A DNA stretch of 64,000 bases from Haloplanus rubicundus (GCF_003342675.1 NZ_CP031148.1:2046001-2110000); one strand, 5' to 3'. Shown: positions 42,728 through 46,621, counted from the stretch's first letter. The notes: generated from the letters alone by a model not told the origin. Numbers and translations: made by a program.

Positions 42728-45385
42728 ATGGTCGATTTGACTCGACGGAGTCTGATGGCAACGTCTACAGCAGCCGCACTCGGCGCCAGCGTCGCCGGCG
42801 TCGCGAGCGCGAGCGACTCGGAAATTTCGGAAGGGGACACGCCGGGCGCCCCGAGCGTCGAGGGAAGCCTCAAGCGCCTCTCGACGACGGCCTTCGGGGC
42901 GGAGGTGACGGGGCCGTTCGTCTTCGAGGACGGGTCCCTGCTCTACAGCCTCCAGCACCCGGAGGAAGCCAATCCCGAGCCCTTCGGTCGGGCGGCGGTC
43001 GGCTACTTCAGCGGCTTCACCTTCGAGTTCGACGGGAACAACGACGACTTCCCGGAGGTCGGCATCCCCGACACCGAGGAGAAACAGCGCCGGGTTCGAT
43101 CCGAGGCCGGTGACTACACGGTCCTGATTCAGGGACGCGAACCGATCGGCGACGGCGAGGAACGGCTGGGGGTCACCCAGACGCCCGACGGCACCGACAT
43201 CACTCAGCGCAACTTCGCCGGCACGCAGTACGGGGGCGCGGCGACGAACCCCGACTGCAACCAGTTCGTCCCGACGGACGAGGACGGCACCGAGGGCTAC
43301 CTGTTCACCAACTGGGAGAACAGCCCCGGCTGCATCTCGCGGGTGTTCCTCAGTCAGGACGAGGACGGCGAGTGGAGCGCCGACCCCGAGGACGCGATGA
43401 ACCTCCCGAACACGGACGCCTTCCGCGACATCGGCGGGACGCGGATCAACTGCTACGGCGACCTCAGCCCGTGGGAGACGCCCGTCTCCTCGGAGGAGAA
43501 CTACGCGCATCCCCGCGTCTCGCTGACCCACACCGTCGGCGACGTCGTCGAGGCCGGGAGCGGCGAGGGCATCCTCGGTGCGTGCCAGTTCTGGAACCGA
43601 CCGAACCCGTCGGAGATTCAGAGTGCGGTCGACGAGTACGACGAGGTCGACGGTTGGTACGTCCAGGGCTACTGGGCGATGACGGGCGTCGAGTTCCTCG
43701 CCTACTATCTGGGCGCCGAGCCGGCCGATCAGAGCGGCGACACCAATCTGGCGACGACGCCCATCGACGACGTCTACCCGAATCCGTACCGCTACGGCTA
43801 CCACGTCGATATCCGTGAGCCGACCGCGGAGGAACCGGACCCGATCAAGTACTGGGTCGCGGGCCGTGCCTCCTGGGAGGCGCCGGACTTCCAGGGCGAC
43901 GACCGGACCCTCTACGGCTGTTCGGACGGCGACAGCAAGGGTATCTACAAGTTCGTCGCCGACGAGTCGATCCCGAGCTACGAGAACACGGACGACATCG
44001 CGGGGATGCTCTACGCCCCGAAGATCACGAACGACGCCGCGAACGCCGCGGAGTCCGGCCAGCGTAACTCCCCGGCCCAGACGCCGCTCGAAGTCGAGTG
44101 GATTCCCCTCGGCCACGCCACGAACGGCGAGGTCGAGTCCTGGATCGCCGAGTACGACGACATCACGCAGGCCGACTACCTCGAAACCCACGCCGACACC
44201 GACTGGCAGGAAGACCCGGCGGCCGCCATCAAGGAGGCAGACCTCGAAGTCATCGCGAACGGCAACCGGAACTACATCACGAACGAGGAAATCGTCGAGT
44301 GGGCCGCCCAGTACGAGGAAGACGGCCCCGACGGCGTCGACGAGGACCTCCGCCGCGTCCCCTTCCTCGAGACCCGGGCGGCCGCGAAGGAGATCGGCGC
44401 CTCCATCGAGTTCAACAAGGCCGAGGGCGTCGACAGCGTCGACGACTCCCAGCCCGGCGACTTCGTCTACTTCGGCATCTCCGAGTTCAACGACGACCTC
44501 GCGGACGCGACGGGCGACGTGCAGATGGACCGCGTCGACGGCGGCGTCGTCTACCGCGCGGAACTCGGTCCCGACTACGACGTCTCGACGCTCGAACCGG
44601 TCATCACCGGCCCCGACTTCACCGACGGCCCGCAGGACGCCGACGACGCCCTCCGCAACATCGACAACGTCTACACGATGCGCGACGGGCGCGTCCTCTG
44701 CTGTGAGGACGGCTTCGGCGGTCCGTCTCGCTCCTACCCCAACGACGGGCTCTACGTCTTCCAGCCGAACGTCCAGGTCGACGTGGACTCGATGGCCGTC
44801 GGCTACGGGCAAACCGGGCAGGCGACACTCACCGCGTCGTCGCTCCCCACCGGCTTTTCGGGCGCCGAGGTCACCGTCTCGGTCTCGAACCCCGAAGTCG
44901 CCACCATCAGTGGCGTCGAGTTCCCCGACGACCTCGGTCTCACCGAGCGCTCGGTCAGTTCGGACGGGTCCACGGTGACGATTCGGGTCGCCGACACCGA
45001 CCGCAACGTTCAGGCCGGCGGCCGGAACGTCCCGCTCGCCACCCTCACCGTCCGCGGCGACAGCACCGGCACGACCGACCTGCAGGTCGCCGTGGGGCAG
45101 ATGGACGACGAGGACGGGAACGCCGTCGGCGCGAACGCCCGTACCGGCGTCCTCGTCACCGGCCCGCCGACGGTCACGGGCGGTGCGGCGCCGACCGACC
45201 CCGACGGCGACGGTCGCTACGAGGACCTCAACGGTAACGGCCGACTGGACTACGAGGACATCGAAATCCTGTTCAGCAACTTCGACGCCGACAGCGTGGC
45301 GATGAACGAGTCGGCGTACGACTTCAACGAGAACGGCCAGCTCGACTTCGACGACGTCGTCGACCTCTACGAAGAGGTCAACTGA
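42728..45385 (+). CDS. Tat-exported PhoX/DUF839-like phosphatase with cohesin-like domain and dockerin
   Basis: 885 aa. Residues 1-33 are a twin-arginine signal (DLTRRSLMATSTAAALGASV, cleavage after ASA). Residues about 40-670 match the PhoX/DUF839 family: LKRLSTTAFGAEVTGPFVFE, NCYGDLSPWETPVSSEENY (conserved NxYGNxSPWET-type motif), AMTGVEFLAYYLGAE, YKFVADESIPSYENTDD and a final VYTMRDGRVLCCEDGFGG. PhoX enzymes are Ca/Fe-dependent alkaline phosphatases acting outside the membrane. Residues about 680-812 are a cohesin-like beta domain (VDSMAVGYGQTGQATLTASS; VSVSNPEVATISGVEFP). Residues about 820-885 are a dockerin with two Ca-binding loops, DLNGNGRLDYED (from about 833) and DFNENGQLDFDD (from about 865). 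The next gene encodes a membrane-anchored cohesin-like partner. Confidence 0.88.
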   Translation: MVDLTRRSLMATSTAAALGASVAGVASASDSEISEGDTPGAPSVEGSLKRLSTTAFGAEVTGPFVFEDGSLLYSLQHPEEANPEPFGRAAVGYFSGFTFEFDGNNDDFPEVGIPDTEEKQRRVRSEAGDYTVLIQGREPIGDGEERLGVTQTPDGTDITQRNFAGTQYGGAATNPDCNQFVPTDEDGTEGYLFTNWENSPGCISRVFLSQDEDGEWSADPEDAMNLPNTDAFRDIGGTRINCYGDLSPWETPVSSEENYAHPRVSLTHTVGDVVEAGSGEGILGACQFWNRPNPSEIQSAVDEYDEVDGWYVQGYWAMTGVEFLAYYLGAEPADQSGDTNLATTPIDDVYPNPYRYGYHVDIREPTAEEPDPIKYWVAGRASWEAPDFQGDDRTLYGCSDGDSKGIYKFVADESIPSYENTDDIAGMLYAPKITNDAANAAESGQRNSPAQTPLEVEWIPLGHATNGEVESWIAEYDDITQADYLETHADTDWQEDPAAAIKEADLEVIANGNRNYITNEEIVEWAAQYEEDGPDGVDEDLRRVPFLETRAAAKEIGASIEFNKAEGVDSVDDSQPGDFVYFGISEFNDDLADATGDVQMDRVDGGVVYRAELGPDYDVSTLEPVITGPDFTDGPQDADDALRNIDNVYTMRDGRVLCCEDGFGGPSRSYPNDGLYVFQPNVQVDVDSMAVGYGQTGQATLTASSLPTGFSGAEVTVSVSNPEVATISGVEFPDDLGLTERSVSSDGSTVTIRVADTDRNVQAGGRNVPLATLTVRGDSTGTTDLQVAVGQMDDEDGNAVGANARTGVLVTGPPTVTGGAAPTDPDGDGRYEDLNGNGRLDYEDIEILFSNFDADSVAMNESAYDFNENGQLDFDDVVDLYEEVN

Positions 45386-45458
45386 GGCCGCTCGGTCGGC
45401 CCAGACGGCCGGCCCGCAGCGCCCCATCCCACCACCCCATTATCACCATACGACAACC

Positions 45459-46190
45459 ATGACACGAGAGACACGATCGATTTCGATACTCGCCGACACC
45501 CGCCGTTGCACTGCAGTCGCGCTGGCGGCGCTCGCCCTCCTCGGGGCGGTGGCGGCGGCCGGGACGGCCACGGCACAGAGCAATCAGCCGACCATCGTCG
45601 TCACCGACGGCACGACTGCACCGGACGGAACCACGACCGTCGGAGTCGTCCTCACGAACGCCCCCGACGGTCTCGCTGGCTACTACCTCGAACTCACCGT
45701 CGAGAATCCGTCGGTGGCACGCATCGACGCGGCCAGCTACCCCGACCAGTACGGTCTCACGAGCGAGCCCGCGATCGAGGATGACGGGGCGACCGTCACC
45801 CTCGAAGCCGCGGACGTGGAAGGCGCCGTCGAACCCGGCGCGACCGACGTGACGCTGGCGACGGTGACGGTCGCGGGCGCCGCGCCCGGCGATGTCGAAC
45901 TCACCGTCACCCCACAGCAGTTCGACGCCGACGACGGGAGCGCGTTCACCCCCGCCACGGCGGCCGGAACGATCACCGTGAGCGGCAGTGGCGACGCCCC
46001 GTCGGCCGACGGGGCGACCGACGCCGACGGCACCAGCGGGTCCGACGCCGACGGGACCGACGCGGACGGCGACGCCGCCGAGGGCGACGCCGACGCCGAA
46101 TCCACCGAGGGCGACGGACCGTTCTCGCCGGTGCTGGTACTCGTGGCGGTCGCACTCCTCGTGGCCACCGGCCTCCGACGGCGCAACTAA
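45459..46190 (+). CDS. membrane-anchored cohesin-like surface protein
   Basis: 243 aa. A Sec-type signal (CTAVALAALALLGAVAAAGT, cleaved near ATAQ) precedes one cohesin-like domain, residues about 46-175: TTVGVVLTNAPDGLAGYYLE, LTVENPSVARIDAASYPDQY, DVTLATVTVAGAAPGDVELT. It is similar to the cohesin-like domain at residues 680-812 of the PhoX protein just upstream. An Asp/Ala/Gly/Thr-rich linker (about 178-218) and a C-terminal helix with FSPVLVLVAVALLVATGLRR anchor it, resembling but not matching the PGF-CTERM tripartite tail. With a dockerin on its neighbour, it is a good candidate anchor for that enzyme (inference). Confidence 0.82.
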   Translation: MTRETRSISILADTRRCTAVALAALALLGAVAAAGTATAQSNQPTIVVTDGTTAPDGTTTVGVVLTNAPDGLAGYYLELTVENPSVARIDAASYPDQYGLTSEPAIEDDGATVTLEAADVEGAVEPGATDVTLATVTVAGAAPGDVELTVTPQQFDADDGSAFTPATAAGTITVSGSGDAPSADGATDADGTSGSDADGTDADGDAAEGDADAESTEGDGPFSPVLVLVAVALLVATGLRRRN

Positions 46191-46204: not shown

Positions 46205-46621
46205 ATGTCACAGTCAACTCCCACCCCCGACGACGCGGAATCGATCCACCGTGAGTACGTCCTCGACGTGCGCATCGTCGAGCGTCCGACCCCCGACGGG
46301 ACGGTCTACCGGTTCGAAGCCCCACACCACGGCGGCGCCGAGTTCGACGACCCCGAGACGGCCGAACTGTACGCCGACGTCTACTTCGACGTCAACGGCT
46401 TCGACGAGTCGAAGGTCGGCGAGGAAGGCGTCCCGCCGGCGATCATCCAGGCCGGCCGGGACACCCTCGCCGCGTACTTCCACACCCAGTCGTACGGCGA
46501 CATCAACTGGATCGCGTCCTTCTACGGCTTCAAGCCGGAACGGACCCAGCGGTTGATCGACCGAGTCCGCAAGCGCGCGGCGAAGATTCGCGAGGGCGTC
46601 AGCGACCGCGACTTGGACTGA
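46205..46621 (+). CDS. conserved haloarchaeal protein, function unknown
   Basis: 138 aa soluble, acidic. The first half (REYVLDVRIVERPTPDGTVY, then RFEAPHHGGAEFDDPETAEL) is probably a beta sheet. The second half is helical: PPAIIQAGRDTLAAYFHTQS and YGDINWIASFYGFKPERTQR, the latter reminiscent of a small helix-turn-helix. No metal motif or TM. It starts 14 bases after the cohesin-like gene and may be in the same transcript. I recognise no function. Confidence 0.75.
   Translation: MSQSTPTPDDAESIHREYVLDVRIVERPTPDGTVYRFEAPHHGGAEFDDPETAELYADVYFDVNGFDESKVGEEGVPPAIIQAGRDTLAAYFHTQSYGDINWIASFYGFKPERTQRLIDRVRKRAAKIREGVSDRDLD

Follow-up and report, generated by a model that had tools for sequence, protein, structure and literature searches.

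A dockerin-bearing PhoX-family enzyme and an adjacent membrane-anchored cohesin protein in Haloplanus rubicundus: a candidate surface-display pair of haloarchaea

Gene organization

The window analysed here is a stretch of 64,000 nucleotides from the genome of Haloplanus rubicundus, in which three consecutive genes on the plus strand are of concern. The first (42728–45385) encodes P0001, a Tat-exported PhoX-family enzyme of 885 amino acids with a C-terminal cohesin and dockerin; the second (45459–46190) encodes P0002, a membrane-anchored protein of 243 amino acids with a single cohesin. Coordinates and reading frames were checked and give a gap of 74 bases between the two genes, as recorded in the first-pass annotation of this DNA. 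The third gene (46205–46621) encodes a protein of 138 amino acids with no assigned function, for which Pfam, NCBIfam and PADLOC yielded nothing significant. It is conserved near phoX in many species; at all six loci that lack the neighbouring cohesin gene it is found on the phoX strand, downstream of that gene, at observed gaps of 1 to 67 bp.

P0001 begins with a Tat signal peptide (42728–42814) that carries a TRRSLM motif and is probably cleaved after ASA, and residues R6 and R7 of the Tat motif are invariant among 21 relatives. Residues 38–676 (42839–44755) form the PhoX region, which is recognized by PF05787 (E 7.4e-15; 55.5 bits, over the cut-off of 24) and by profile comparison with 3zwu (E 3e-11). 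In Pseudomonas PhoX, the positions equivalent to C242, E257 and E384 are the metal-ligand residues C179, E194 and E273; these three, the ligands placed by the alignment, are invariant across the 21 relatives. P0001 shares with PhoX alkaline phosphatase (PF05787, 3zwu) both the profile and the equivalents of these three residues, and would be expected to act as a phosphatase. It differs in its added cohesin and dockerin, and in that the C-terminal segment of the bacterial enzyme finds its match at the N-terminus of P0001. This match joins residues 38–82 (42839–42975; motif GAEVTGP...QHP) to residues 514–558 of Pseudomonas PhoX with weak scores, while the remainder of the region aligns in the normal order. 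As judged from this alignment, the propeller of haloarchaeal PhoX may be circularly permuted or closed in another way.

P0002 is built more simply. A Sec-type signal peptide (45459–45578), with its hydrophobic stretch near residue 16, is followed by the cohesin, an acidic linker rich in Ser, Thr and Gly (45984–46106) and a predicted C-terminal membrane helix (46107–46175), with a hydrophobic stretch near residue 217 and a short basic tail behind it. The helix is present and a PGF motif ahead of it is absent.

Cohesin and dockerin domains

The cohesin of P0001 spans residues 678–812 (44759–45163) and that of P0002 residues 41–175 (45579–45983). AlphaFold models, built from alignments of relatives, reached a pLDDT of 87.3 for the tail of P0001, and of 94.0 (pTM 0.86) for the P0002 domain. 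When each cohesin domain was compared with the PDB by Foldseek, all 50 of the matches listed were cohesins, and the OlpA cohesin complex 3ul4 was among the top matches of both. The second match of P0002 was the Archaeoglobus fulgidus cohesin 2xdh (E 1.3e-8, TM 0.73/0.76, 20% identity). The two haloarchaeal domains are also related to one another, as aligned by hhalign (99.8% probability, E 4.5e-30, 30% identity). In their predicted structures, both domains have the cohesin beta-sandwich fold.

Scans of P0001 and P0002 against Pfam and NCBIfam detected no cohesin and no match to PF00963, the profile being matched by five of the 42 members of the cohesin family alignment (best E 2.6e-6), with P0001 and P0002 not among them. 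Haloarchaeal sockets of this kind are mostly missed, because the Pfam cohesin profile does not detect them. Sequence searches of the PDB, plain and with profiles (including profile A5), found no cohesin either, so the cohesin assignment is carried by the comparison of folds.

The dockerin of P0001 occupies residues 822–885 (45191–45382), with a DPDGDG motif ahead of the first loop. It has two calcium loops of 12 residues, both of which lead into a helix in the AlphaFold model, and its calcium positions are conserved. Loop 1 (DLNGNGRLDYED, residues 833–844; 45224–45259) has Tyr842 at loop position 10, and loop 2 (DFNENGQLDFDD, residues 865–876; 45320–45355) is followed by Tyr881 at repeat position 17; positions 10 and 17 are classical recognition positions of dockerin repeats. 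Against solved cellulosomal dockerins the profile gave weak matches (E 0.005 and above) that were mixed with EF-hands. Dockerin_1 (PF00404) was matched by all 24 of the dockerins tested at E <= 0.1 (best 5.5e-7), P0001 itself scoring 17.1 bits, below the cut-off of 22.9. In the first-pass annotation, P0001 was described as a PhoX-like protein with a Tat signal, a cohesin-like domain and two dockerin-type calcium loops, and P0002 as having a Sec signal, a related cohesin-like domain and a C-terminal anchor helix. Sequence and predicted fold uphold these domain calls.

Linkage of the two genes across haloarchaea

Two samples of PhoX loci, overlapping in species, were used to compare gene content. 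In the first, drawn from 146 genomes across the order, 40 loci were examined and PhoX relatives fell into two classes: a long class that ends in a cohesin and dockerin, and a short class that ends near residue 681. The gene for an anchored cohesin lay directly downstream in 19 of the 21 long loci and in none of the 19 short ones. The second sample came from a scan of GTDB genomes and comprised 80 named loci and the window, 81 in all, from which one locus at a contig end was left out. Here, a downstream gene encoding a Sec signal, cohesin and membrane helix was found at 35/41 dockerin-bearing PhoX loci, the window included, and at 0/39 dockerin-less ones; in each of the 35, a gene with cohesin and dockerin is followed directly by a cohesin gene. 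The first-pass annotation had asked that co-conservation of the two genes be checked, and had named dockerin phosphatases lacking any cohesin-like protein as a rule as one outcome that would speak against pairing; the counts bear out the former and do not show the latter.

Since arrangements of this type occur in dozens of haloarchaea, the order of genes in the window is not a chance one. A gene pair that stays together points to functional linkage, which is not the same as contact. On a tree of PhoX built without the cohesin and dockerin, the presence of the dockerin changes about nine times, and so does that of the neighbour. On supported branches only, there are five independent pairs, too few to reach p 0.05, and the neighbour changes in the same direction as the dockerin in about 4.6 of them and in the opposite direction in 0.

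These data bear on the possibility that the tail serves the enzyme only as a calcium-stabilized spacer at high salt, with P0002 having some other surface role. The loops do also match ordinary EF-hands, and tail-less PhoX is common and presumably works; yet a spacer accounts neither for the invariant positions outside the calcium ligands nor for the joint presence of tail and anchored cohesin, and we regard it as improbable.

A C-terminal membrane helix is predicted in all 35 of the PhoX-locus neighbours, the window again included, and a PGF motif is found in 15 of the 35. PGF-CTERM (TIGR04126), an archaeosortase signal, was matched by eight members of the neighbour family. As an anchor in cis would be an alternative for dockerin-less PhoX, these enzymes were checked for a C-terminal helix, and by hydropathy none was scored on PhoX with or without a dockerin. 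The PhoX tails of three loci (L063, L132 and L136) look weakly PGF-like. In a further genome (G138), a protein of 155 residues (L198:6955-7422) has an N-terminus that resembles a Tat lipoprotein signal (VAGCG) and then a cohesin, which suggests that a lipid anchor may be another means of holding the socket.

Loci without the anchor gene

At six loci, spread over five species (Halegenticoccus twice, Halocatena, Halogranum, Halalkalicoccus and Halomarina), PhoX has a dockerin and its own cohesin and the neighbour is absent; the two PhoX copies of Halegenticoccus each have a cohesin of their own. The genomes of these loci hold no separate second cohesin gene of the P0001/P0002 family at a significant level. 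The anchor is therefore not always needed, and the dockerin may serve in self-association or in another role. The pairing put forward in the first-pass annotation gains strong support from gene linkage and joint presence or absence, and is qualified by these six loci.

In a rival reading, the dockerin pairs mainly with the cohesin of its own enzyme, either intramolecularly or between copies, so that the enzyme would close on itself or form a soluble polymer, with P0002 in a secondary or different role. The enzyme's own cohesin could indeed be the real partner of the dockerin, given that, of 42 cohesin-bearing PhoX open to judgement, 41 also have the dockerin, and that both are kept at the six loci whose genomes yield no further significant match to this cohesin family. 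The recognition positions tell a different story. Position 10 (Tyr842) is Tyr in 35/35 neighbour-bearing loci, and G, H, G, R, Y and D in the six without neighbour; position 17 (Tyr881) is Tyr in 34/35, and S, R, S, S, F and S in the six. Tyr842 is hence replaced in five and Tyr881 in all six, changes that pairing with a retained own cohesin does not explain. More broadly, conserved columns were lost at neighbour-less loci in 4/31 cases for the dockerin and 4/303 for PhoX (Fisher p 0.003; five of the six loci belong to one clade). For the same reason, loss of Tyr842 and Tyr881 does not amount to six independent events. Pairing with the own cohesin also leaves unexplained that the neighbour is absent whenever the dockerin is (0/39), and does not sit well with Haloarcula pellucida (L096), where PhoX has kept its own cohesin and lost the dockerin, and the neighbour is absent. 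On balance we consider it unlikely that the own cohesin is the main partner.

Cohesins and dockerins beyond the phoX locus

Counts across genomes were obtained by profile searches. In H. rubicundus itself, the cohesin profile has just two significant matches, P0001 and P0002, and the P0001-type dockerin profile just one, P0001. With one cohesin in P0002 and two of this family detected in the genome, no multi-cohesin scaffoldin of the kind that defines a cellulosome is seen within this family. A different dockerin (DVNGDGVVDIFDAV...; PF00404, E 4e-10) ends a protein of 2447 residues encoded on the minus strand (G000:C2 2756610-2763953, equivalent to L190:8610-15953); no partner cohesin was identified for it.

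Among the 146 genomes, cohesins of the P0001/P0002 family are present in 46 and P0001-type dockerins in 52, and neighbouring dockerin and cohesin genes recur behind unrelated proteins. In about 16–17 of 20 selected cohesin loci near other enzymes, counted by eye, a dockerin gene immediately adjoins the cohesin. This count is relevant to an alternative in which the dockerin-like tail binds a substrate, a sugar or the S-layer and not a cohesin. Two papers have read haloarchaeal dockerins, on glycoside hydrolases, as substrate binders (PMC10963439, PMC13260240), which lends that idea some precedent; it is opposed by the tight coupling to an adjoining cohesin gene, at PhoX loci and at these other loci alike, and by the cohesin fold being the known receptor of dockerins. 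We regard this reading as very improbable.

The cassette is not confined to PhoX. A PhoD phosphatase of Haloarcula vallismortis (L191:5187-7409; PF09423, E 6e-109) ends in a cohesin-dockerin tail 53% identical to that of P0001; within the stretch examined it has no adjoining cohesin gene, and it might share the PhoX anchor. In another genome (G046, L192:6324-10581), a nuclease-like SNase/DUF4350 protein with cohesin and dockerin is followed by a cohesin-anchor gene that overlaps it by about 11 bases; by its predicted domains this is a PhoX-type cassette with another enzyme. Scaffoldin-like proteins with two or three cohesins, some also with a dockerin, were seen at L185:11650-13272 and its flanks (G061), at L212 (G122) and at L188 (Haloarcula pellucida). 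All three adjoin dockerin-bearing proteins, several of which seem to be exported by Tat. Among the domains of the G061 proteins that were scanned are 3-keto-disaccharide hydrolase, sorbosone dehydrogenase, multicopper oxidase and ThuA domains.

Discussion

The two genes probably make up an operon-like unit that holds PhoX at the cell surface, the dockerin plugging into P0002 and the enzyme's own cohesin perhaps taking further copies. PhoX would fold with its metals in the cytoplasm before export by Tat, and P0002 would be exported by Sec; its C-terminal helix would keep it in the membrane, and the flexible acidic linker would present its cohesin to the outside. Through its calcium-loaded dockerin, PhoX would then bind this cohesin specifically, so that the phosphatase would stay at the cell and not diffuse away. 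Because a bound PhoX would still offer its own cohesin, further copies of PhoX could chain on, as could, in some species, a PhoD with this tail. That dockerin and anchored cohesin probably form such a surface clip is argued from dozens of species in which the two are retained or lost as a pair.

Among the closest known systems is the A. fulgidus pair ORF2375 and ORF2376, in which a dockerin and a cohesin are carried by the products of consecutively numbered ORFs, and to which the fold match of P0002 to 2xdh also leads. ORF2375 bears a cohesin as well, and the same two-gene arrangement, a cohesin-plus-dockerin gene adjacent to a cohesin gene, is found in the window. The A. fulgidus pair differs in having no phosphatase and in its low similarity to P0002 (20% identity in the fold match), and we know of no conserved membrane-anchored operon for it. 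Strong and specific binding of the ORF2375 dockerin to the ORF2376 cohesin has been reported (PMC9705933). Single-cohesin anchoring scaffoldins, such as OlpA of Clostridium thermocellum, offer a parallel in function: a cohesin anchored to the cell takes a dockerin-bearing enzyme, as P0002 would. In contrast to these, the P0002 family has an archaeal membrane helix or PGF-type anchor, and P0001 is a phosphatase-family protein with its own cohesin and no link to cellulose. For ANME archaea, use of cohesins and dockerins with non-cellulolytic cargo has been proposed from genomes, including scaffoldin-like proteins (PMC9012536). There the lineage is another one and the cargo consists of substrate-binding and S-layer proteins, and the section on them reports no conserved pair of enzyme and anchor genes.

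To the first-pass annotation, use of this pairing to hold a phosphatase on an archaeal surface would have been new. Pairing of cohesins and dockerins in archaea was already known (PMC9705933, PMC9012536); its use with a phosphatase, in haloarchaea and in an anchored operon is what appears to be new. Our literature search found no paper on haloarchaeal cohesins; the main review of non-cellulosomal modules lay outside that search, and may hold an earlier mention. The new element is a conserved haloarchaeal operon of phosphatase plus anchor, together with indications that pairs of this kind occur widely among haloarchaea.

Tentatively, the locus may be one case of a general haloarchaeal system of plug and socket, in which an anchored cohesin encoded beside each client starts a chain of enzymes bearing both modules, unrelated phosphorus-scavenging enzymes such as PhoX, PhoD and a nuclease-like protein share sockets, and some species have scaffoldin-like clusters that resemble cellulosomes and serve other substrates. 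A pair so compact, present in many cultured genera, would allow a clean test of whether halophilic archaea dock enzymes at their surface in molar salt, and a pair of the P0001–P0002 type may provide a salt-proof tool for coupling proteins.
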